From NCBI RefSeq assembly GCF_003627755.1, contig NZ_CP032694.1, positions 611,501 through 675,500 of the forward strand: a stretch of DNA of 64,000 bases, given 5' to 3'. The notes beneath the pieces are model-generated. The model was not told the DNA's origin, searched no databases, and was given only the letters and a program-made list of their open reading frames with translations. Shown here in pieces: positions 2 through 52,871 of the stretch; the first letter of the stretch is position 1, and every line of letters starts with the position of its first letter. A program made the translations under genes and the position numbers. The stretch comes from Rhizobium jaguaris. GTDB lineage: Bacteria; Pseudomonadota; Alphaproteobacteria; Rhizobiales; Rhizobiaceae.

Positions 2-1435
2 GAGGGAGCCTTCAACGCCGCCTTCGTACCGCTCTTTGCCAAGGAGATCGAGGCGAACGGCATCGATGGCGCCAAGCGTTTTTCCGAGGAGGTCTTCGGC
101 GTTCTCTTCTCGGTCCTGCTGCTGATCACCATCGTCATGGAACTGGCCATGCCGCTCCTGGTGCGTTGGGTCATCGCGCCTGGTTTCACCGACGATGCCG
201 AGAAATTCGACCTGACGGTCCGGTTGGCCGCCGTGATGTTCCCCTATCTCATGTCGATGTCGCTGACGGCGATGATGAGCGGCATGCTGAATTCGCTGCA
301 TCATTTCTTCGCCGCCGCCGTGGCTCCGATCTTCCTCAACCTGGTGATGATCAGCGCGCTGTTCTACGCGATCTATTTCGGCGCCGATCCGCTAACCACC
401 GCCTGGTACCTGTCCTGGTCGGTGCTGGTGGCAGGCGTGCTGCAGCTGGCCGTCGTCTATATCGGCGTGCGCCATGCCGGCATCAGTATCGGCCTGCGCT
501 TTCCGCGCTTCACGCCCAATGTCAAGCGGCTCCTGCTTCTTGCCATCCCGGCGGCCATCACCGGCGGCGTCACCCAGATCAATCTGGTGATCGGCCAGGC
601 GATCGCCTCGGGCAAGGAAGGCGCGATCGCCGCCCTGCAATATGCAGACCGCATCTACCAACTGCCGCTCGGCGTCGTCGGCGTCGCGGTCGGAATCGTG
701 CTTCTGCCGGAACTGGCCCGTTCGCTGAAGTCAGGCCATATCAAGGAAGCCGCCAATATCCAGAACCGCTCGATCGAATTCGTGCTGTTCCTGACCCTGC
801 CGGCCGCTGTCGCCCTCTGGCTTCTCTCCGACGATATCATCCGCGTGCTTTACGAGCGCGGCGCCTTTAACCCGAACAATACAACGCTGGTCGGCTCCAT
901 CCTCGCCATCTTCGGCCTGGGCCTGCCGGCTTTCGTGCTGATCAAGGCGCTGCAGCCCGGCTTTTATGCCCGCGAAGATACGAAATCGCCGATGCGCTAC
1001 ACGGCGGTCGCCGTCTTCGTCAATTCGGCGCTGTCCATCCTGCTTTTCCCGGTGCTGGCCGAACGCGGCATAGCGCTCGCCGAGGCGGTTGCCGGATGGC
1101 TGAACGCTGTGCAGCTCTTCGTCACGCTCTATCGCCGCGGACATCTCGCCTGGGAATGGTCGCTGGCGCGCCGCACCGTCATGCTGCTCGTCTCCTCCGC
1201 CGTCATGGGCGGCGTCATCGTATATTTGTCTCATCGCTGGGAGCCGCTTCTGGGATCCAGCTCGACGCTGCTCACCAAGACCGGCGTCCTGGGCTTAGTC
1301 ATCTTGATGGCGATGGTGGTGTATTTCGTCGTCGCCTTGCTGATCGGCGGCGTGGATTTGGGCATGGTACGCCGCAATTTGAAGCGCAAGCCGGCGCCTT
1401 CCTCGCCGGATGCGAAGGTGGTGAATGGGGAGTGA
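2..1435 (+). CDS. murJ: Lipid II flippase MurJ (5'-truncated by window start)
   Basis: The reading frame is open from the first bases of the window, so the N-terminus lies upstream; about 477 residues are visible of a family length near 520-530. It begins with the MurJ-typical stretch GAFNAAFVPLFAKE and continues through many hydrophobic membrane segments. MurJ flips the undecaprenyl-linked peptidoglycan precursor lipid II across the inner membrane. The first internal ATG at 137 is not the real start because the family signature precedes it. The C-terminal tail is short, basic and proline-rich. The next gene is separated by a repeat-filled gap, so co-transcription is unlikely. Confidence 0.95.
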   Translation, partial: EGAFNAAFVPLFAKEIEANGIDGAKRFSEEVFGVLFSVLLLITIVMELAMPLLVRWVIAPGFTDDAEKFDLTVRLAAVMFPYLMSMSLTAMMSGMLNSLHHFFAAAVAPIFLNLVMISALFYAIYFGADPLTTAWYLSWSVLVAGVLQLAVVYIGVRHAGISIGLRFPRFTPNVKRLLLLAIPAAITGGVTQINLVIGQAIASGKEGAIAALQYADRIYQLPLGVVGVAVGIVLLPELARSLKSGHIKEAANIQNRSIEFVLFLTLPAAVALWLLSDDIIRVLYERGAFNPNNTTLVGSILAIFGLGLPAFVLIKALQPGFYAREDTKSPMRYTAVAVFVNSALSILLFPVLAERGIALAEAVAGWLNAVQLFVTLYRRGHLAWEWSLARRTVMLLVSSAVMGGVIVYLSHRWEPLLGSSSTLLTKTGVLGLVILMAMVVYFVVALLIGGVDLGMVRRNLKRKPAPSSPDAKVVNGE

Positions 1436-1439
1436 TCAA

Positions 1440-1670
1440 CTCCTTCGCCCCGTGAAGCGGGGAGAAGGTGGCTTGGAGCGATCGAACGGAGTGAGATTGG
1501 GCCAAGTCGGATGAGGGGCTCTCACCCATGTCCCCGCAGAAGTGCGGTATGCAGGCGCCGCCATTTTTGCGGGTGGCCAGGATAGTCTGCCTACGCCGTA
1601 CTTTTGTGCCTGGCCCCTCACCCTAACCCTCTCCCCGCAAGCGGGGCGAGGGGACGATTTTTTGCCCAAG
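1440..1670. repeat. Composite rhizobial intergenic palindromic repeats
   Basis: The murJ-VOC gap holds two GC-rich imperfect inverted repeats. One lies around 1446-1468 (CGCCCC..GCGGGG core). The other lies around 1615-1655, where CCCTCACCCTAACCCTC is followed by CTCCCCGC AA GCGGGGCGAG. Elements of this appearance are common mosaic intergenic repeats in Rhizobiaceae (established knowledge of RIME-like elements). No reading frame of gene character runs through the stretch. The distal hairpin ends just before the next gene's ribosome binding site. Confidence 0.65.
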
Positions 1671-1683
1671 GCGGAGAGTTCCC

Positions 1684-2076
1684 ATGTCCCAATCCCTGTT
1701 CGTCGTAACCCTCGTCGTCGACGATTACGACCGCGCCAAGGCATTCTATTGCGATTGCCTCGGCTTCGAATGCTTGGCCGACGAAGTGCAGCCGGAGGGC
1801 AAGCGGTGGGTGATGGTGAAGCCGAAGGGTGCTGAGGGGGCGGCATTGCTTCTGGCACAGGCCGCCGACAATGAACAGCGTGCCGCCATCGGCAACCAGA
1901 CCGGCGGCCGCGTCGGCTTTTTCCTCAAGACTGACGATTTCGCCCGCGATCACGCGGCAATGACGGCTAGGGGCGTGCAGTTCCGGGAAGAACCGCGCCA
2001 TGAGGTCTACGGAACGGTGGCGGTCTTCACCGACCCTTACGGCAACACCTGGGATCTGATCCAGCATTCCGCGTGA
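1684..2076 (+). CDS. VOC family (glyoxalase/bleomycin-resistance fold) protein
   Basis: A 130-residue single-domain vicinal-oxygen-chelate protein. The N-terminal beta strand VVTLVVDDYDRAKAFY and the closing DPYGNTWDLIQ are typical of the family. Members are metal-dependent lyases, isomerases or dioxygenases, or antibiotic-binding proteins. The substrate cannot be read from sequence. It appears monocistronic, preceded by repeats and followed by another repeat copy before trpS. The start is supported by a purine-rich AAGGCGGAGAG just upstream. Confidence 0.85.
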   Translation: MSQSLFVVTLVVDDYDRAKAFYCDCLGFECLADEVQPEGKRWVMVKPKGAEGAALLLAQAADNEQRAAIGNQTGGRVGFFLKTDDFARDHAAMTARGVQFREEPRHEVYGTVAVFTDPYGNTWDLIQHSA

Positions 2077-2080
2077 GGTA

Positions 2081-2122
2081 CGATCCCGAAAACTATATGG
2101 CGGTTTTCAAATAAGATCATGC
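2081..2122. repeat. Rhizobial palindromic repeat, copy 1 (gatcccgaaaa..gcggttttc..gatcatg)
   Basis: An imperfect inverted repeat with the arms GATCCCGAAAA and a complementary GGTTTTC..GATCATGC half. It shares the order of blocks with copies near 4571, 5858, 21588, 24443 and 30598. It lies directly after the VOC stop codon and ahead of trpS. Confidence 0.7.
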
Positions 2123-2241
2123 GAGGCCAAATCCGCGATATAGCCTCTTGATCCCCGCTTGTCAGCCGTGCATAAGCCCGCCGAACACCAGGGGTCGAGC
2201 GCGAGCTCGCCCGGGCCCTCCACAAGCCTTTTGAGGAAGAC

Positions 2242-3306
2242 ATGACCGAATTCAAGCCGCTCGTATTCTCCGGCGTCCAGCCGACCGGCAATCTCCATCT
2301 CGGCAATTATCTCGGCGCGATCCGCAAGTTCGTGGCACTGCAGGCAAACAACGACTGCATCTACTGCGTCGTCGACATGCATGCACTGACCGCCCAGCTC
2401 GTGCATGAGGACATGCCGGGCCAGATCCGTTCGATCACCGCCGCCTTCCTCGCCGCCGGCATCGATCCGGAAAAGCATATCGTCTTCAACCAATCCGCCG
2501 TGCCGCAGCATGCCGAACTGGCCTGGATCTTCAACTGCGTCGCCCGCATCGGCTGGATGAACCGCATGACGCAGTTCAAGGACAAGGCCGGCAAGGACCG
2601 CGAACAGGCCTCCCTCGGCCTCTACGCCTATCCGAGCCTGATGGCGGCCGACATTCTCGTCTACCGTGCCACCCACGTGCCCGTCGGCGACGACCAGAAG
2701 CAGCATCTGGAACTGACCCGCGACATCGCCATGAAATTCAACATGGACTACATGGAACACATTCGTCGTGCGGGCTACGGCATCGACATCACCGTCGGCG
2801 ACGAGCCGGTGCATGCCTATTTCCCGATGGTCGAGCCGCTGATCGATGGTCCGGCGCCGCGCGTCATGTCGCTCCGCGATGGCACCAAGAAGATGTCGAA
2901 GTCGGATGCTTCGGATCTGTCGCGCATCAATCTGCTCGACGACGAAGAGAATATCTCCAAAAAAATCCGCAAGGCCAAGACCGATCCGGACGGCTTGCCG
3001 AGCGAGATCGCCGGCCTCGCGGGGCGCCCGGAAGCCGACAACCTCGTCGGTATCTACGCCGCCCTTGCCGACAAGTCGAAGGCGGATGTTCTCGCGGCAT
3101 TCGGCGGACAGCAGTTCTCGGTCTTCAAGCCGGCGCTGGTCGATCTCGCCGTGCATGTGCTCTCGCCGATCACCGGCGAAATGCGCCGCCTGATGGCTGA
3201 TCCCGGCCACATCGACACGGTTCTACGCGACGGCAGCGCCCGTGCCCGTGCCCGTGCCGAAGTGACGATGAAGCAGGTCCGCGACATTATCGGCTTTATC
3301 TATTGA
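2242..3306 (+). CDS. trpS: Tryptophanyl-tRNA synthetase
   Basis: A 354-residue class Ic aminoacyl-tRNA synthetase that charges tRNA-Trp. The HIGH-equivalent [12 protein letters not shown] lies at residues ~16-27 and the KMSKS loop KKMSKSD at ~214. Length matches bacterial TrpRS. The start ATG is preceded by TTTTGAGGAAGAC, a good ribosome binding site. A perfect 9-bp hairpin follows the stop codon. murJ and trpS are neighbours in many Rhizobiales, which agrees with the assignment. Confidence 0.97.
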
Positions 3307-3321
3307 CTATCTTGTGAAAGC

Positions 3322-3344
3322 AGCCCCCGTATGAAACGGGGGCT
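3322..3344 (+). terminator. Hairpin after trpS
   Basis: AGCCCCCGT - ATGAA - ACGGGGGCT forms a perfect 9-bp GC-rich stem with a 5-base loop 15 bases after the trpS stop. There is no T-tract after it, so it may be a weak or Rho-assisted terminator, or an mRNA-stabilising hairpin. Confidence 0.6.
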
Positions 3345-3379
3345 TGCAAAAGGCCTCGGTCAGGTGTCAGACTTGGGTC

Positions 3380-3871
3380 ATGGTATCAAAACGTCTCTCA
3401 CGGCTCGAAGGTCATCGCCGCAAGTTCATGGCGGTCATCGACGGCACTCCTGAATGCCAGCGTGCCGTCCATTATGCCGGTCGGCGTGCCAAGAACTCCA
3501 ATGGCGGCCTTGTGCTCCTTTTTGTGATCCCCGAAGGCGATTTCCAGCAATGGCTGGGGGTCGAGGAGATCATGCGGGCCGAGGCACGCGAGGAGGCCGA
3601 GGCGGCAACGGCCAAGGCAGCGCAGATCGTGCGCGAGAATATCGGCATCGACCCGGAGATCGTCATTCGCGAAGGATCGGCCGCCGAGCAGATCAACGCG
3701 GTGATCGAGGAAGACCGGGATATTGCGCTCCTCGTTCTTGCCGCCGGTTCGGCCAAGGAAGGACCTGGACCGCTGGTATCTTCGATTGCTGGACGTGCCG
3801 CAGCCTTTCCGATCCCCGTGACGGTGCTGCCGGATACGCTGACGAATGAGGAAATCGACGCCCTCAGCTGA
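3380..3871 (+). CDS. Universal stress protein (UspA family)
   Basis: A 163-residue single USP domain. The N-terminal strand KFMAVIDGTPECQRAVHYA and the terminal FPIPVTVLPDTL strand are typical. The nucleotide-loop region LVLAAGSAKEGPGPLVS resembles the GxxGx9G(S/T) ATP motif but is imperfect, so nucleotide binding is uncertain. An in-frame TTG at 3344 would add 12 residues but lies in the trpS hairpin, so the ATG at 3380 is preferred. The gene stands alone between trpS and the NifU-family gene. Confidence 0.85.
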   Translation: MVSKRLSRLEGHRRKFMAVIDGTPECQRAVHYAGRRAKNSNGGLVLLFVIPEGDFQQWLGVEEIMRAEAREEAEAATAKAAQIVRENIGIDPEIVIREGSAAEQINAVIEEDRDIALLVLAAGSAKEGPGPLVSSIAGRAAAFPIPVTVLPDTLTNEEIDALS

Positions 3872-4003
3872 GTTCTTTTGGGCTATTTCTTGAGACTCAG
3901 TCTCTTGATTAGCGTAGCCAAAAAGCCTATTTTCTTTTGAAATATTCTAAAGTCGGATAGTACAGACGCGGCATAGGCCTCCGCCCGCCGCATGGAGATC
4001 AAG

Positions 4004-4570
4004 ATGTTCATTCAAACCGAAGCGACGCCGAACCCCGCAACCCTGAAGTTCCTGCCGGGCAAGGTTGTCATGGAAAGCGGCACGGCCGAATTCCGCAGCG
4101 CCGATGAAGCGGAAGTCTCGCCGCTCGCGACCCGCATCTTCGATATCCCCGGCGTCAGCGGCGTCTATTTCGGCTACGACTTCATCTCTGTCTCCAAGGA
4201 AGGTCAGGAATGGCAGCACCTGAAGCCCGCCATCCTCGGTTCGATCATGGAGCATTTCATGTCCGGCAAACCGGTCATGGGCGAAAGTTCGGTCCTCTCC
4301 GAAGTGCAGGATGCCGGCGGTGAGTTCTTCGATGCGGCAGATGAATCGATCGTGCTGACCATCAAGGAATTGCTCGAAACCCGCGTTCGTCCCGCTGTTG
4401 CCCAGGATGGCGGCGACATCACCTTCCGCGGATTTCGCGACGGCAAGGTCTACCTCAATATGAAGGGATCCTGCTCCGGTTGCCCGTCGTCGACGGCGAC
4501 GTTGAAGCATGGCATACAGAATCTGCTGCGCCATTTCGTCCCGGAAGTGCAGGAAGTCGAAGCCGTCTAA
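4004..4570 (+). CDS. NifU/Nfu-type Fe-S cluster carrier protein
   Basis: A 188-residue protein with an N-terminal Nfu_N domain (MFIQTEATPNPATLKFLPG, residues 1-~90) and a C-terminal NifU-like domain. The latter carries the cluster-ligating CxxC as CSGC near residue 158. Such proteins carry and deliver assembled [4Fe-4S] clusters. A possible ATG at 3992 is rejected because GGAG at 3994-3997 is well placed as a ribosome binding site for the ATG at 4004, and family members begin at MFIQTE. A repeat copy follows immediately, then tsaB. Confidence 0.92.
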   Translation: MFIQTEATPNPATLKFLPGKVVMESGTAEFRSADEAEVSPLATRIFDIPGVSGVYFGYDFISVSKEGQEWQHLKPAILGSIMEHFMSGKPVMGESSVLSEVQDAGGEFFDAADESIVLTIKELLETRVRPAVAQDGGDITFRGFRDGKVYLNMKGSCSGCPSSTATLKHGIQNLLRHFVPEVQEVEAV

Positions 4571-4615
4571 GCATGATTCCAAAAAGTGCATGGCGGTTTT
4601 TGGATAAGATCTTGC
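4571..4615. repeat. Rhizobial palindromic repeat, copy 2
   Basis: The block starts GCATGATTCCAAAAAGTGC, runs through GCGGTTTTTGGA and ends AAGATCTTGC. The outer GCATGATTCCAAAAA arm pairs with TTTTTGGATAAGATCTTGC imperfectly. It begins at the last base of the preceding stop codon and belongs to the same family as the copy at 24443. Confidence 0.75.
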
Positions 4616-4694
4616 AGGACCAAACGCGAACGCGTAGTGACGACTCCAAGACACGTCGCTGCGCTATAAGCGCTGTCTTTTCGGAAAAGTTGTG

Positions 4695-5351
4695 ATGATC
4701 GTACTGGCGCTCGACACGGCAGGTGTGGATTGCGCTGCCGCTGTGTATGATAGTGGCAGTGATTCTGTGATTGGGGAGGTCACGGAAACGATTGGGCGAG
4801 GACATGCCGAACATTTGATGGATGTTGTCGACCGGGCGCTGGCTGAAGCCGATATAGCGCTCGCAGCCGTGGAGCGCGTGGTCGTCACCGTCGGTCCCGG
4901 CTCTTTCACCGGCATCCGCATCGGCGTTGCCGCTGCCCGCGGTTTCGCGCTTTCCCTGAACATCCCTGCTGTCGGCGTCACGACCCTCGAGGTCATGGCC
5001 GCCGCCGCACGGGAGACGAATCCGGGTAAATCGGTTCTGGCGGCCATCGACGCCAAGCGCGAGGAGATCTATCTCCAGTCGTTCGATGCCGATGGCCAGC
5101 GGCTGGACGAGGCGCGCGCCGTGACGATCGATGAAGCACGTGCGATCTCCGATGCTTTCGACGGCGTCGTCACCGGCTCGGCTGTTGCCCGGCTCAGCGA
5201 CTTGCCGCCGGCAGCGCGGCCTGATGCCTTTCCGATTGCCACCGTCGCCCGGCTAGGCGCTGTCAAGCCTGTCAGCGAAAAGCCGAAGCCGCTCTATCTC
5301 CGTGGACCCGACGCCAGACCGCAGGCGGGGTACGCAGTCGCCAGGGTATGA
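4695..5351 (+). CDS. tsaB: tRNA N6-threonylcarbamoyladenosine biosynthesis protein TsaB
   Basis: A 218-residue ASKHA-fold protein that partners TsaD and TsaE in making t6A37 on ANN-decoding tRNAs. The N-terminal MIVLALDTAGVDCAAA, GRGHAEHLM and VGPGSFTGIRIGVAAARG stretches are hallmark TsaB motifs. A GTG at 4692 lies immediately before the ATG at 4695; the ATG giving MIVLALDT is preferred. Its stop overlaps the rimI start by 4 bases (ATGA), so the two are translationally coupled, as in many bacteria. Confidence 0.95.
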   Translation: MIVLALDTAGVDCAAAVYDSGSDSVIGEVTETIGRGHAEHLMDVVDRALAEADIALAAVERVVVTVGPGSFTGIRIGVAAARGFALSLNIPAVGVTTLEVMAAAARETNPGKSVLAAIDAKREEIYLQSFDADGQRLDEARAVTIDEARAISDAFDGVVTGSAVARLSDLPPAARPDAFPIATVARLGAVKPVSEKPKPLYLRGPDARPQAGYAVARV

Positions 5352-5848
5352 CCATGCTTGAATCCTATCTCACCCTGAAAGCCGAATACGAAATTGTCCC
5401 GATGCAGTTGCGGGATTGCGCCGAAGTGGCGACTCTGCATGGCGAGCGGTTTTCGCGAGTTTGGGACGAGACGGAGTTTCAAAATCTCCTGTCACAGGAT
5501 ACCACCTTCGGCTTTGTTGCCCGCCAGACCAACGCTATCCTGAAAAAGCCGCTTCCCGGCTTCGTACTGGCACGGCATGCCGCGGGCGAGGCGGAAATCC
5601 TGACGGTTGCGGTCAACGCCAAGCTTGGCCGTGCCGGTCTCGGCTGGCGGCTGATGCAGGCGGCGTTGCGCGAGGCGCGCAACCGCGGCGGTGAAGCCAT
5701 GTTTCTGGAGGTCGACGGCACCAATCAGCCGGCCCTCGGTCTCTACCGCAAGCTTGGTTTTGAAAAGGTCGGCGAGCGTAAGGCTTATTATGTCGATGAA
5801 AGCGGCGCGAAATCGACGGCGCTTGTCATGCGCCGCGTTCTTCGCTAG
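5348..5848 (+). CDS. rimI: Ribosomal protein S18-alanine N-acetyltransferase
   Basis: A 166-residue GNAT acetyltransferase. The acetyl-CoA motif region is LTVAVNAKLGRAGLGWRLM and the family-typical FLEVDGTNQPALGLYRKLGF follows. RimI acetylates the N-terminal alanine of ribosomal protein S18. The overlapping ATGA junction with tsaB supports the start and the tsaB-rimI pairing. A rhizobial repeat follows before mur. Confidence 0.93.
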   Translation: MTMLESYLTLKAEYEIVPMQLRDCAEVATLHGERFSRVWDETEFQNLLSQDTTFGFVARQTNAILKKPLPGFVLARHAAGEAEILTVAVNAKLGRAGLGWRLMQAALREARNRGGEAMFLEVDGTNQPALGLYRKLGFEKVGERKAYYVDESGAKSTALVMRRVLR

Positions 5849-5857
5849 TCCGTTGTT

Positions 5858-5965
5858 CTAAAGCGCATCGCGATCTCCGGGGATTCGCTCTCTGCGCTTT
5901 AGACCTTTGATTTCGCGCATGTCGTTATCCCAAAACCGCTGCGCACCTTTGCGCGACATGCTCTA
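5858..5965. repeat. Long rhizobial intergenic palindromic repeat, copy 3
   Basis: The block contains AAAGCGCATCGCGATCTCC paired loosely with GCGCTTT, then GCGCATGTCGTTATCCCAAAACCGCTGCGCAC and a closing GCGCGACATGC. The second half is the reverse-complement form of the AGCGGTTTT..GATC family seen elsewhere in the window. It fills the rimI-mur gap and may also hold the mur promoter. Confidence 0.7.
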
Positions 5966-5991
5966 GATGAATAGACCGAAGACCGTATTCA

Positions 5992-6456
5992 ATGAACGAT
6001 CCCGTAAAATCCCTTGAGGAGCTTTGTGCCGAGCGCGGTATGCGCATGACGGAGCAGCGGAGAGTCATTGCGCGCATCATCGAGAGTTCCGAGGATCATC
6101 CGGATGTCGAGGAACTGCACCGCCGCTCCGTCAAGATCGATGCGAAGATCTCGATTTCGACTGTCTACCGCACTGTGAAGCTTTTCGAGGATGCCGGCAT
6201 CATCGAGCGCCATGACTTCCGTGACGGCCGTTCGCGTTACGAGACCGTACCGGAAGAGCATCATGATCACCTGATCGATCTGAAGAGCGGCGAAGTGATC
6301 GAATTTCATTCGCCGGAGATCGAGGCGCTTCAGGAGCGCATCGCCCGCGAACACGGTTTCAAGCTCGTCGACCATCGGCTGGAGCTTTACGGCATTCCGC
6401 TGAAGAAGGATGGGCCGCTGAAGAAGGACGAGCCGCTGAAGAAGGACGAACGCTGA
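5992..6456 (+). CDS. mur: Fur-family metalloregulator (rhizobial Mur/Fur type)
   Basis: A 154-residue Fur-family repressor. The winged helix spans ~15-85 (MTEQRRVIARII..ISTVYRTVKLFEDAG) and the metal-site region is EEHHDHLIDLKSGEVIEF. The CxxC zinc motifs of many Fur proteins are absent, as in rhizobial orthologues, where the protein mainly represses manganese uptake as Mur (established knowledge). The C-terminus ends in three tandem LKKDxP units (6400-6453, 18-bp DNA repeats), which is unusual. The next gene, olsA, starts 31 bases downstream. Confidence 0.88.
   Translation: MNDPVKSLEELCAERGMRMTEQRRVIARIIESSEDHPDVEELHRRSVKIDAKISISTVYRTVKLFEDAGIIERHDFRDGRSRYETVPEEHHDHLIDLKSGEVIEFHSPEIEALQERIAREHGFKLVDHRLELYGIPLKKDGPLKKDEPLKKDER
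6400..6453 (+). repeat. Three tandem 18-bp repeats in the mur 3' end
   Basis: Units at 6400, 6418 and 6436 each begin CTGAAGAAGGA and encode LKKDGP, LKKDEP and LKKDER. They add a charged, lysine-rich tail after the conserved Fur domain. Copy-number slippage here would change tail length without shifting the frame. Confidence 0.85.
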
Positions 6457-48389: not shown

Positions 48390-48466
48390 GCACCCGTAGC
48401 TCAGCTGGATAGAGCACCAGACTACGAATCTGGGGGTCAGGAGTTCGAATCTCTTCGGGTGCGCCA
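48390..48466 (+). tRNA. tRNA-Arg (anticodon ACG)
   Basis: A 77-nt cloverleaf. The acceptor stem is GCACCCG/CGGGTGC, the D arm contains AGCTCAGCTGGATAGAGC, the anticodon arm is CCAGA-CTACGAA-TCTGG with anticodon ACG, and the T arm contains GTTCGAATC. The CCA end is encoded. Its 3' end is duplicated imperfectly at 50912-50926, marking it as an integration site. Confidence 0.97.
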
Positions 48467-48469
48467 TTT
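48455..48469 (+). repeat. Left attachment-site copy (tRNA-Arg 3' end)
   Basis: TCGGGTGCGCCATTT spans the tRNA 3' end and three following bases. It matches 14 of 15 bases with 50912-50926 and, extended leftward, 17 of 20. It is the probable attL (or intact attB half) of the element between. Confidence 0.65.
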
Positions 48470-48648
48470 CTTCATCACTCAAAAATAAAGATTGGCATGG
48501 CCAGCTGGCGCGAGATCGCAATCCGAGCGGGCCGCACGCGAATCGTCCATTTCTCAGCGCTAGACAACAAACCAAGCGAACTACGGTCTCTACGAGTGAG
48601 GTCGGCTGCCGAATAGGTTTGCGCTAGGACAAAGCGCCTTCCGTGGGG

Positions 48649-50298
48649 TTAGGGATCGATGTCGATCGATTTCATGTCTTCGAAAGGTACTTCAATCGAC
48701 TGTCCGGTCCCTGGACAAACGAGGCGCGCCCTTTCGGAGAATCGTGACACCCACTGGCCATGGAGTAGTGAGGAGCAGGCGTCACAATGCCACATAACGA
48801 ATCGTGCTCCGAAATGATTATCAAGCCTTTTCACGAACTCGTTTCCAAGCGCCGGCACCTCGTAGCTGAAGAGCAGGGTAGGCCTTAGGGCCAGCCATTC
48901 CGCCGCACCACCCTGGGGTACATGGTCGTCGTATAGAGCTTCCCATTCATGCTGCCGACGCACGCCAGGAACAATATTGCCGTCATCAGGCATACCCAGC
49001 AGCGAGTCGTATCTAGGGTCGCGCTGGTCAAAATAGGGTCGCATGACGCCGATCAGATGTTGGAACCACGACCGCACGTCGGGATTCCATATTTCTTTAA
49101 CCTTGGGACCGAGAACATCGAGAGCTCGGATAGACTCGGTGAGTGCATCCCCAATAGTTGCTTGCTGCGCGCCTCGGAACAATTTCGTCAACTCAAATTG
49201 ACTGCACAGAGCGGAAACGGCCCCGAGCTGAGGTTGCTGCCGAAGTTGCGAAGCAAGTTCCTGCAAAGCCACGAACAATCGGATCGTGACGCTTGCCGCT
49301 GCACTCGACAATTTACTGTCCCCAAGCACCGGAGGCGCATGCAGGGCGAACCAGCACACACCGGACACGATGCGCAGCAGCGTTGCAATTTGATCGCTTT
49401 TTGCGGTTGCCAACGCATGTTGGAACGACAAGGGTCCTAAGATCCGCGCCACTACGTCGAATATATAAAGGTAGTCTGGTTCGAGCTCCTCTAGCCTGTC
49501 GCCATAACAGGCGTTGAAGAACAGTCTCACCTCGTCCACCTGCCCGCCGCTAAGCTTGAGCACGTGCAGCAGCGTGTTCGCAAGCGCCTTGGCTTCGAAT
49601 ATGGTCATCGGGCGAACGTACCAGCCTTTGGTTCCTTTAGGTCGGAAGGTACAGACAGACCCGCAGACCGTTATCAGTTCGATGGGATCTTGTTGGCTAA
49701 GTTTTAACCTCTCAAGATGCTCGGATTCTTCGAACCAGCCACGCGTTATCTCGCTTTCTGGCGGCCTTCGATTGCCCAAGTCTCCCCAAGCAAGCGTCCG
49801 GCGAACTACCTCATGAAGTCTTGGCCACAACCCCGCCAATCTCGGCTCTTTGGCCGCATCCGACGGCAATCCGTCCGTGACGTTCTTTAGAAGGGTGAGC
49901 GCGCCCAGGGTTTGCTCGCGATCAAGTGCCAGAGGCACAAATTCCTGGAGCAATAGGTACTCTTCCACTGCTCCTATCAGATACTGCACGCCAAACGGAG
50001 TGATTAGGAGATCGACCCTGTGGCTGACCTCGTGCAGCACGCCGCATATGATAGCGTTTATCTCGGCCCGTCCGTGCGGTCCGGCCAGTTCATAAGCATG
50101 TCTTGAGGTCGGATCATCGTACCAGCGCTCGTCAAGGAACGAGAGCGAGCTCAGGCGGGGAGCATCCTCGAGCACTTCGAAGAAGTATCGGGCTGGCAAC
50201 TCACACGCAGCGAGCGCCTGCTCCGGGAATTTGATTTCCAAGGTGCGAGGATTGAAAGTGCATTCCTCAACCAGAATCTCTACAGCCCTTGAACTCAC
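48649..50298 (-). CDS. Unknown protein with an HExxH-x18-E motif (tRNA-island gene B)
   Basis: A 549-residue protein I cannot assign to a family. It starts at GTG 50298, overlapping the stop of the upstream gene (GTGA); the longer frame to 50487 would overlap that gene fully and is rejected. LHEVSH at residues ~88-93 followed by 18 residues and Glu112 gives HExxH-x18-E, the zinc-ligand spacing of gluzincin peptidases. The middle is helix-rich. The C-terminus has CDAC and a later CPG, a possible zinc ribbon. No signal peptide or TM is seen. Codon use is less GC-biased than in neighbours, suggesting transfer. Confidence 0.75.
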   Translation of the reverse strand: MSSRAVEILVEECTFNPRTLEIKFPEQALAACELPARYFFEVLEDAPRLSSLSFLDERWYDDPTSRHAYELAGPHGRAEINAIICGVLHEVSHRVDLLITPFGVQYLIGAVEEYLLLQEFVPLALDREQTLGALTLLKNVTDGLPSDAAKEPRLAGLWPRLHEVVRRTLAWGDLGNRRPPESEITRGWFEESEHLERLKLSQQDPIELITVCGSVCTFRPKGTKGWYVRPMTIFEAKALANTLLHVLKLSGGQVDEVRLFFNACYGDRLEELEPDYLYIFDVVARILGPLSFQHALATAKSDQIATLLRIVSGVCWFALHAPPVLGDSKLSSAAASVTIRLFVALQELASQLRQQPQLGAVSALCSQFELTKLFRGAQQATIGDALTESIRALDVLGPKVKEIWNPDVRSWFQHLIGVMRPYFDQRDPRYDSLLGMPDDGNIVPGVRRQHEWEALYDDHVPQGGAAEWLALRPTLLFSYEVPALGNEFVKRLDNHFGARFVMWHCDACSSLLHGQWVSRFSERARLVCPGTGQSIEVPFEDMKSIDIDP

Positions 50299-50720
50299 AT
50301 CTTTGCCGTCGGCAAGGCGCAGAAGGCTTCGAGACCAGAATGGCAGATGAGCACCGCCATCGGGACAAGGAGAGTCAGTACTGCGCCAGGTAGGTGAAGG
50401 GCTAGAACGAGTGCCGTCAATGTCGCCCCGACTGATGACTGTATGCCTTGGCGAATCAGCTTCGTGAACTCGCCATTCTTGGCGCAAAGGTTCGCGCGAA
50501 CTCGTTCGATGAATAGATCGTAGAATTTACTGACATCCCGGCGCTTTGCGGCCATGCCTAACTCTCCGCCTCCACCGGGCAGCAGCGCGTCAAGATCGAA
50601 TTCCTGGTTGAGACGCCCAATCTCAGAGGCGAGCTGTGTTCGAGCGGGTTCTAGATTGCCGTCCTTGATCTCGTCATTGAGCATCAAGGCCGACTTGAGC
50701 AGGTCATCGAACTGGACCAT
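50295..50720 (-). CDS. Small membrane protein of unknown family (tRNA-island gene A)
   Basis: A 141-residue protein. The N-terminal ~90 residues are soluble and helix-prone (FDDLLKSALMLNDEIKDGNL, KFYDLFIERVRANL). The C-terminal ~45 residues contain two hydrophobic stretches (VGATLTALVLALHLPGAVLT and LVPMAVLICHSG) likely to span the membrane. CAGGGGGAAA precedes two adjacent ATGs; the second (50720) has better spacing. It is translationally coupled to gene B. I recognise no family. The pair fills the small tRNA-linked element. Confidence 0.75.
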   Translation of the reverse strand: MVQFDDLLKSALMLNDEIKDGNLEPARTQLASEIGRLNQEFDLDALLPGGGGELGMAAKRRDVSKFYDLFIERVRANLCAKNGEFTKLIRQGIQSSVGATLTALVLALHLPGAVLTLLVPMAVLICHSGLEAFCALPTAKM

Positions 50721-50911
50721 CATTTTCCCCCTGAGTAATCCATGGCCGTCAACATATCAAAATTGAGGGCACCTCAGCAACGTGGTGGCGCCTGCGATCG
50801 AGCTGATCTCCCCTCCAGTCACTAGCAAATTACAGGCGGCGGCGGGTCGAATGCAACGGCACAACAATCAACAGGTGTAACAATTACATAGCGGTTCCCT
50901 GTTTGGTCCCC

Positions 50912-50926
50912 TCGGATGCGCCATTT
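50912..50926 (+). repeat. Right attachment-site copy
   Basis: TCGGATGCGCCATTT repeats the tRNA-Arg 3' end with one mismatch, 2457 bases from the left copy and in the same orientation. It defines the right edge of the two-gene element. No integrase lies between the copies, so mobilisation would need a helper, or the integrase has been lost. Confidence 0.65.
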
Positions 50927-52058: not shown

Positions 52059-52871
52059 TCACAATTTCCTCGCCGAAAAAACGATTGCCTGAAGAGGCAT
52101 GCGTGCCGGCTTGTCGCCGAATGCGCGGTGAATCTCCTGTAAGATCGCCTCAAAGACCTGTTCGGGTTCGGCGCCCTGTCGCGAGCGGATCTGTTCGGCA
52201 GCAGGATTGCCGTAGACGAGGCCGCGGGCGAAGGCTGCGGTATCGGGAATTTCCTTTTCCACCCTTAGCACTGAAATCGTGATGTCGGAGAAGCCGGCAT
52301 CTATGAGCGATTCCTTGATCGGGTCGATTGGCGCGCAGGAAAACGGCACGGTGTAGAACTGTGGCGGATCGGCGGGGAAAAGACGCCCGACGACCTCGTG
52401 GGCGATGAGGGAATATGGATTGTAGTCCATCCGATCCCAGACGCTGAGCAAATAGGTACCGCCGGAGGCAAGGACGCGATGCGCTTCGCGATGGGCTTTG
52501 TCCTTGTCCGGAAAAAACATCAGGCCGAATTGGCATACGACCGCATCGAAGCTGTCGGCCGCAAAGGGCAGTTGCGTCGCGTCGGCCGTTTGGAAGTCGA
52601 TCTGATCGGCAGGGCCGAATTTCTTGCGTGCAATGTCCAGCATCGGTGCGTTGAAATCGGTGGCTGTCAGGGACACGCCGGAGGGTAAGGCATCGCGCAG
52701 ACGGCGCGTGACGATTCCCGTGCCGGCGGCAATCTCAAGAACCCACCCGGGCCTGAGCGCAGCCGCGCGCCGTGCGGTTTCGGCCGCATAGTCGGCAAAG
52801 ATGATCGGCCCCATGCCGGTGTCATAGTGCTGCGGAATGTCGCCGACAAAACGAGCCGAATCCGTGTTCAT
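52059..52871 (-). CDS. Class I SAM-dependent methyltransferase
   Basis: A 270-residue methyltransferase of the UbiE/Methyltransf_11 type. Motif I is VLEIAAGTGIVTRRL, then TATDFNAPMLDIARKK, DAVVCQFGLMFFPDK and an HRVLASGGTYLLSVWDR loop. The substrate is not predictable. It is monocistronic on the - strand between the GNAT and PsiF-repeat genes. Confidence 0.88.
   Translation of the reverse strand: MNTDSARFVGDIPQHYDTGMGPIIFADYAAETARRAAALRPGWVLEIAAGTGIVTRRLRDALPSGVSLTATDFNAPMLDIARKKFGPADQIDFQTADATQLPFAADSFDAVVCQFGLMFFPDKDKAHREAHRVLASGGTYLLSVWDRMDYNPYSLIAHEVVGRLFPADPPQFYTVPFSCAPIDPIKESLIDAGFSDITISVLRVEKEIPDTAAFARGLVYGNPAAEQIRSRQGAEPEQVFEAILQEIHRAFGDKPARMPLQAIVFSARKL

Follow-up and report, generated by a model that had tools for sequence, protein, structure and literature searches.

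A pair of adjacent genes beside a tRNA-Arg gene was analysed in a 64,000-nt stretch of the Rhizobium jaguaris genome (contig NZ_CP032694.1, positions 611,501 to 675,500; this whole stretch is referred to as the window, and positions follow its own numbering). The pair encodes a predicted zinc peptidase (P0001) and a small protein predicted to form a membrane hairpin (P0002), and is probably a rare, laterally acquired peptidase-membrane protein module, a variant of known designs in which a peptidase is combined with a small protein, its function being predicted only. A role in conflict or defence is slightly favoured, since the relatives of the small partner weakly but repeatedly match a defence-candidate model, PDC-M35B of PADLOC. 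To the particular reading preferred here, in which the pair is a likely laterally acquired two-gene cassette for a protease-triggered, membrane-damaging self-sacrifice defence, we assign a probability of about 40%.

A predicted zinc peptidase with a conserved HExxH site

At least eight relatives of P0001 besides its own entry were found in a protein search in which the 7999 best candidates were scored, a ninth (L002, 32-33% identical to P0001) was recovered from a genome collection, and a tenth was located on the Roseomonas mucosa plasmid NZ_CP025064, where it is broken close to an element of the IS21 type. A profile search with A3 added no new relatives among the 7999 best candidates, no relative of the large or the small family was found in the viral contigs, and none of the large protein in the phage records. 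All ten sequences that extend over the site, counting that of the window, kept the HExxH motif, at identities down to about 33%; P0006 was left out of this count because it starts downstream of the site. The glutamate at position x19 was likewise present in 10/10 sequences, while the x18 glutamate appeared in only 3/10, and P0001 itself carries both (E112 and E113). The initial annotation had described an HExxH-x18-E signature, of which the HExxH part held and the conserved glutamate is to be placed one residue further on; a HExxH not conserved among homologues, which it had named as a finding against itself, did not arise.

Moreover, H89, E90, H93 and E113 were invariant in the nine-sequence alignment, and the confident AlphaFold model built from these nine sequences placed HExxH and E113 on consecutive helices (Table 1). 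H89, H93 and E113 would bind zinc in a gluzincin-like site. In thermolysin, the HExxH...E ligand spacing is also x19; P0001 resembles the gluzincins in having this spacing on two consecutive predicted helices, but no solved peptidase was matched by its profile or its fold. Judging from its sequence, P0001 is likely to be an active zinc peptidase, and the predicted peptidase family is one without a name in the libraries searched.

In the C-terminal region, a CxxC...C knuckle was found across the large family, with a fourth cysteine in some members only, and the non-catalytic part of the protein was well conserved in the alignment. Library matches in this respect were weak, being restricted to primosomal protein N' zinc regions for P0001 in NCBIfam (best E 0.0056) and led by a zinc ribbon (0.0027) when nine large-family members were compared with Pfam. 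The sequence search against solved structures gave 0 matches for the large family, and the G protein-coupled receptor rows that appeared in the fold search of the large model were rejected as helical look-alikes.

The gene pair in other replicons

The small gene was found directly 5′ of the large gene in the window, in L002 (with a gap of 92 bp) and on the Roseomonas plasmid NZ_CP025064, where the two genes overlap by 1 nt if GTG is taken as the start and where the large gene is broken or cut short. The L002 pair (930-3214) lies on a contig filed as a Dojkabacteria metagenome-assembled genome, beside open reading frames (ORFs) that appear primase-like and nuclease-like by eye; this setting suggests a mobile replicon, and the Dojkabacteria label may be a binning error. 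Furthermore, P0004 and P0014, as well as P0006 and P0017, had equal longest-contig figures, from which we infer two further linked pairs. The initial annotation had proposed to look for the pair as a conserved two-gene unit near tRNA genes or defence islands in other Rhizobiales; it was found in these two replicons, and the pair is almost certainly a real conserved unit.

A cysteine-flanked hairpin protein probably related to a defence candidate

A total of 11 relatives of P0002 besides its own entry were found in the protein search. Its model was all-helical, and the hydropathy computed for seven members located a hydrophobic C-terminal hairpin, predicted to cross the membrane twice. One cysteine before and one after this hairpin were present in 14/14 proteins of the window family, which include those of L002 and the Roseomonas plasmid, and in 8/8 PDC-M35B-like proteins (22 in total). 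Within the window family these cysteines were 55 residues apart and were the sole two in 7 of the 14 proteins; some members had a third cysteine in between, giving a spacing of 47 for the nearer one, with the spacing of 55 present too. No Foldseek match with an E value below 0.001 was obtained for the small-protein model, and the best E value of the small family in the sequence search against solved structures was 0.37. The assignment of this family to SLATT was rejected, as a single member matched it with an E value of 2.8.

When 13 small-family members were scanned at E ≤10, five matched the PADLOC model PDC-M35B, with a single E value under 0.001: P0020 (4.1e-5), L002 (0.0017), P0021 (0.002-0.003), P0018 (0.0085) and P0022 (0.089). 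The fragment P0023 also matched it (E 0.0023), while P0019 and the Roseomonas plasmid protein did not. The PDC-M35A profile, on the other hand, matched four loci of the own genome, none of them at the window's pair, and 9 of 14 controls too. Three of these four loci were read and all were HtrA/DegP-like, the one sent to Pfam being a Trypsin_2 protein (3.2e-37). PDC-M35 therefore looks like a trypsin-like peptidase combined with a small protein, a composition read from single-gene profile matches rather than from complete PDC-M35 pairs. No paper naming PDC-M35 was found in the literature search, and the candidates in PADLOC are described as still mostly unvalidated in the excerpted text of PMC12988326.

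Across 398 genomes of the phylum, a single match to PDC-M35B was found. In another genus of the order, the model matched 6 of 242 genomes, and a profile made from five PDC-M35B-like proteins matched 8 of 242, its five source proteins included. Eight PDC-M35B-like loci were compared, a weak match (G1038/L063) having been dropped for want of a matching ORF in the non-overlapping list. At one of them (L062 in G1050, 3258-6105), a cysteine-flanked hairpin protein overlaps by 1 nt with the first of two successive caspase-type genes, whose Pfam C14 values were 1.2e-9 and 0.0019 (under the cut-off), the first also matching caspase-3 in PDB (2.1e-4). The neighbour was a CHAT protein at L074 and L076 (PDB matches of 2.3e-9 and 9.4e-7, respectively), and L075 has a neighbour that resembles the one of L074 by eye. 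A CHAT search of the own genome gave 0 matches. Unannotated ORFs were observed upstream of the PDC-M35B-like genes at L060 (4237-5175, 312 amino acids with hydrophobic stretches and no Pfam match) and L049 (5236-5607, 123 amino acids). By eye, HExxH ORFs were also seen within 3 kb of the small gene and not adjacent to it at L049 (2973-3935, ArdC-like) and L074 (426-1133, M48-like).

When the window family (14 proteins) and the eight PDC-M35B-like proteins were compared profile to profile, they aligned over 97 columns with a P-value of 3.2e-6, the reversed control giving 0.061. None of 300 hydropathy-preserving column shuffles scored as high, the best of them coming close (42.1 vs. 44.1), and the small protein of L002 scored above every decoy (2814 made, 2763 scored). 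The window small family is on this sequence evidence probably, although not provably, homologous to the PDC-M35B-like proteins, and the likeness in layout, in which the gene for a cysteine-flanked hairpin protein is accompanied by one for a peptidase, holds whether or not they are homologous. The small protein would thus probably, although not provably, belong to a wider group that is combined with trypsin-like, caspase and CHAT peptidases in bacteria, and the HExxH enzyme would be a new class of partner. The broadest version of this idea, in which one interchangeable cysteine-flanked two-helix membrane killer serves trypsin, caspase, CHAT and zinc peptidases, and the pair is the founding example, with a metal protease, of a system resembling pyroptosis, is put forward as rather doubtful.

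Distribution and possible insertion at the tRNA-Arg site

Of 148 genomes sampled in the genus, 147 lacked the gene for the 549-amino-acid protein, as did 384 of 385 in the class and 396 of 397 in the order, the sole carrier being in each case the window's own genome; the class and order samples overlap in members, and the initial screening step of the genome search was loose. The presence of the genes at the same place in all relatives, another outcome that the initial annotation had set against itself, was accordingly not encountered. A query made of the flanks matched somewhere in all 148 genomes of the genus, and 12 siblings were picked among the matches listed, namely 11 with nearby matches on the tRNA side and the GNAT side, plus G096 with the tRNA side only. 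In others, among them G020, G052, G053, G055, G087, G093 and G142, the two matches were far apart or on separate contigs, so the site was not comparable.

In 6 of the 11 siblings (G012, G016, G023, G026, G061 and G062), only 50-200 bp separated the tRNA from the GNAT-side match, as inspected in the sequence without an ORF listing. These are candidates for the empty sites that had been suggested for comparison, with a junction that fits the repeat described below to a mixed degree (on the right side in G012 only). The other five harboured different cargo. In G046 (L035, G046:C88, 791-1351), it was a single SLATT-like protein of 187 amino acids (NCBIfam SLATT_1, E 1.2e-4, under the curated cut-off), for which no Pfam match was found at 0.01. 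Proteins of this kind are predicted to act as pore effectors in conflict systems. In G111, G039 and G054 (L037, L038 and L039, respectively), about 1.8 kb was present at the tRNA site, and in G111, the only one in which it was read, the cargo was an FAD monooxygenase of the aromatic hydroxylase type (Pfam 8.6e-64). G085 carried two small genes, MarR-like and SnoaL-like by eye. In G096 (L046, G096:C3:432600-437000), a truncated ORF of the methyltransferase that the window has at 52059-52871 adjoins the tRNA, and the 4.4 kb read there contained no match to the GNAT side; thus, the GNAT region appears to have been deleted from the tRNA outward. From these sequences, the tRNA-Arg gene appears to be a swap site for small cargo in the genus.

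The repeat that borders the pair consists of the last 12 bases of the tRNA followed by TTT, and its two copies, one at each cargo border, are spaced by 2457 bp, with an extended match of 17 out of 20 bases. Allowing for one mismatch or none, only these two copies were found in the genome of 8,025,568 bases, compared with one for the reversed-pattern control, and a match to the repeat arose by chance in 2 of 2000 first-order Markov simulations of the downstream 3 kb. No second copy with up to three substitutions was found in the stretches scanned of the 12 siblings. To the right of repeat 2, the sequence aligned with that directly following the tRNA in G012 (0/500 shuffles as good), the other 11 siblings being unclear. 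Insertion through the repeat is, on this sequence, possible, and lateral acquisition of the pair at tRNA-Arg is considered probable. The transferred mini-element of the initial annotation is therefore retained in part: the pair is rare and siblings hold little or other DNA at the site, but as an autonomous element it would be a candidate only, given mixed evidence from the borders and no sign of an integrase.

Layout and composition of the locus

The coordinates of the locus are collected in Table 1. The end of the tRNA-Arg at 48466 and the one-mismatch repeat downstream, both given in the initial annotation, were reproduced, with the tRNA called by ARAGORN and Rfam. Its description of the content, two minus-strand genes only, P0002 then P0001, overlapping as GTGA (4 nt), likewise followed from the ORF coordinates, and no integrase was seen by eye among the ORFs listed between the repeats. 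P0002 has 142 amino acids when read from the first ATG and 141 from the second. The G+C content at third codon positions was 0.643 and 0.607 for the P0002/P0001 pair, below the direct flanks (0.776 in the kinase and 0.692 in the GNAT gene). However, since six further nearby genes ranged from 0.649 to 0.778, the shift is modest, and the less GC-biased codon use that had been noted is to be read accordingly. Promoter and terminator scans stayed at chance level.

Table 1. Positions of the tRNA site, its repeat and the two genes within the window (pLDDT, predicted local distance difference test; pTM, predicted template modelling score).
Feature	Position	Strand	Basis
tRNA-Arg (ACG), site gene	48390..48466	+	ARAGORN; Rfam RF00005, 66.5 bits
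Direct repeat copy 1, tRNA 3′ end (15-mer)	48455..48469	+	
Direct repeat copy 2, one mismatch	50912..50926	+	
P0002, small helical protein, 142 amino acids, C-terminal hydrophobic hairpin	50295..50723	-	Model (pLDDT 77, pTM 0.73); hydropathy
P0002, hydrophobic hairpin region, about residues 98-136	50316..50432	-	Model, hydropathy, alignment
P0002, Cys80 codon, conserved cysteine before hairpin	50484..50486	-	
P0002, Cys135 codon, conserved cysteine after hairpin	50319..50321	-	
P0001, predicted zinc peptidase, 549 amino acids, GTG start, 4-nt overlap with upstream stop	48649..50298	-	Model (pLDDT 83.4, pTM 0.87)
P0001, HExxH, residues 89-93, on predicted helix 73-99	50020..50034	-	
P0001, Glu113 (x19) codon, putative third zinc ligand, predicted helix 101-125	49960..49962	-	
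P0001, C-terminal zinc-ribbon-like knuckle (C505xxC508 ... C528 ... G532)	48703..48786	-	Weak zinc-region profile matches

Comparison with known systems

PDC-M35 also has two genes, for a peptidase and a small protein, and its small-protein model is matched by relatives of P0002, as described above, but not by P0002 itself; it differs further in that PDC-M35A looks trypsin/HtrA-like, whereas P0001 has HExxH and matched nothing in PADLOC. In bacterial gasdermins with proteases, the protease frees a membrane-pore protein. The pair would share this working principle only, as neither fold nor profile searches showed a relation and P0002 is small and helical.

According to the excerpted text of PMC7159879, EACC1-caspase systems have a constant small 5′ membrane protein beside a 3′ peptidase, EACC1 having one transmembrane helix with alpha+beta extensions. 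The order of a small 5′ membrane protein gene beside a 3′ peptidase gene is the same in the window pair as in this account, but the partner there is a caspase and the small protein an alpha+beta protein with one transmembrane helix, in contrast to the helical hairpin protein and zinc peptidase predicted here. No Pfam match to the C14 caspases was found among nine large-family members, and EACC1 was not among the Pfam and NCBIfam families matched by 13 small-family members, the presence of an EACC1 model in either library being unconfirmed. The same excerpt mentions, in the context of conflict systems, a zincin-like metallopeptidase coupled to a small precursor of the FxSxx-COOH type that it is said to cleave. 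Compared by description only, that system differs from the window pair in that a short C-terminal peptide would be freed from a variable precursor, while the C-terminus of P0002 is a conserved hydrophobic hairpin.

Protease activation of a gated effector has also been described for the nuclease-protease pairs of Hachiman, AVAST and Canu, in which the partner protease is trypsin-like or a caspase (PMC12799240, in the portion available). There, as far as that portion goes, the effector is a DNase and the protease is not a zinc enzyme, unlike what is predicted for the window pair. In the literature searches for an HExxH metalloprotease in an anti-phage setting, nothing relevant was found among the matches listed, and there was none for SLATT with a metalloprotease.

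Proposed mechanism and alternative explanations

In the mechanism proposed, the peptidase would be held inactive until an infection cue, which its helical remainder and C-terminal zinc-ribbon-like knuckle may sense. Once activated, it would cleave the N-terminal soluble part of P0002 or the linker, and the freed hairpin would assemble in the inner membrane and permeabilise it, with the infected cell dying or arresting. Given a hairpin topology, the two cysteines of P0002 would lie on the same side of the membrane and keep the hairpin closed or assembled. The initial annotation had proposed a small membrane protein paired with a metallopeptidase effector, a layout whose HExxH signature is conserved but whose roles are shifted here, with the peptidase more likely acting as switch and P0002 as the likely killer. 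That the hairpin is an effector gated by cleavage is suggested tentatively. The SLATT-like protein at the tRNA site of G046 (under its cut-off, as given above) was counted as support for the self-sacrifice reading.

Several results weigh against that reading. Neither P0001 nor P0002 had a match in Pfam, PADLOC or PHROGs, in keeping with the initial annotation, which had placed neither protein in a recognised family; no PADLOC family was matched by P0001 or eight of its relatives; and the large model gave no Foldseek E value below 0.001 in PDB, VIA or the viral structures. For the small partner, the first hydrophobic segment was weak (1.3-1.7) in five of the seven members computed, the window's P0002 had no match to PDC-M35B, and the search of its own genome with this model found nothing. 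Among the PDC-M35B-like loci, three of eight (L059, L060 and L049) had no recognisable peptidase neighbour, and that of L061 was CHAT-like by eye only, lay upstream rather than downstream and matched no database. The first profile-profile test (13 vs. 5 proteins) gave a P-value of 0.0029 and a probability of 10.7%, the subset tests were not significant (78/300 shuffles as good for the caspase/CHAT-linked subset and 15/300 for the other), and sequence-to-profile scores were mostly within the decoys. At the site itself, the left inner border aligned with the post-tRNA sequence of 7 of the 12 siblings (G111, G039, G054, G061, G062, G026 and G016; at most 1 of 500 shuffles as good). Four of these siblings lack space for any cargo; the left end is therefore probably native, and it is uncertain that an insertion took place precisely at the repeat. 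Finally, the flanking genes (kinase, GNAT and methyltransferase) looked ordinary by eye.

An assignment of the roles in the opposite direction, in which the small membrane protein is a sensor or anchor and the zinc peptidase acts as executor by degrading proteins of the host or the phage, is unlikely. The layout it would share with EACC1-caspase, whose small protein is read by its authors as a membrane sensor that activates the peptidase (PMC7159879, in its excerpted text), and the large size of a peptidase whose non-catalytic part is well conserved speak for it, whereas the single transmembrane helix and alpha+beta extensions of EACC1 do not agree with the all-helical hairpin protein predicted for P0002.

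Quite improbable is a toxin-antitoxin-like or immunity pair, with one protein restraining the other, the module maintaining itself or its host element, and no anti-phage role. The tight gene overlap, the conservation of both genes together and the plasmid- or replicon-like contexts (L034, and L002 with its primase-like ORF by eye) would be explained by it; the solitary chromosomal pair of the window, between whose repeats neither a replicon nor an integrase was seen, and the PDC-M35B match of the small-protein relatives, which points to a defence candidate, would not. A pair for envelope stress or protein processing without a defensive role, transferred by chance, whose peptidase would mature or degrade membrane or envelope proteins, is given just as little weight: it would suit the ordinary flanks and the metabolic or regulatory cargo of the sibling sites (the FAD monooxygenase by Pfam, the MarR- and SnoaL-like genes by eye), but the rarity and scattered distribution of the pair are unlike stress housekeeping. 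Lastly, a structural or relic HExxH, with the large protein not being a peptidase, would fit the missing match to any peptidase family or solved fold, but is very improbable given the retention of the motif with its x19 glutamate in 10/10 sequences down to about 33% identity.

If the self-sacrifice reading is true, a peptidase family with no match in Pfam, PADLOC or PHROGs, and just a weak one to a zinc region in NCBIfam, would be added to the few death systems of bacteria that are gated by a protease. The cysteine-flanked hairpin would then be a common, testable signature tying trypsin, caspase, CHAT and zinc-peptidase candidates into one logic. The two-gene cassette of 2.5 kb would moreover be a compact test object that can be moved whole into a laboratory strain.

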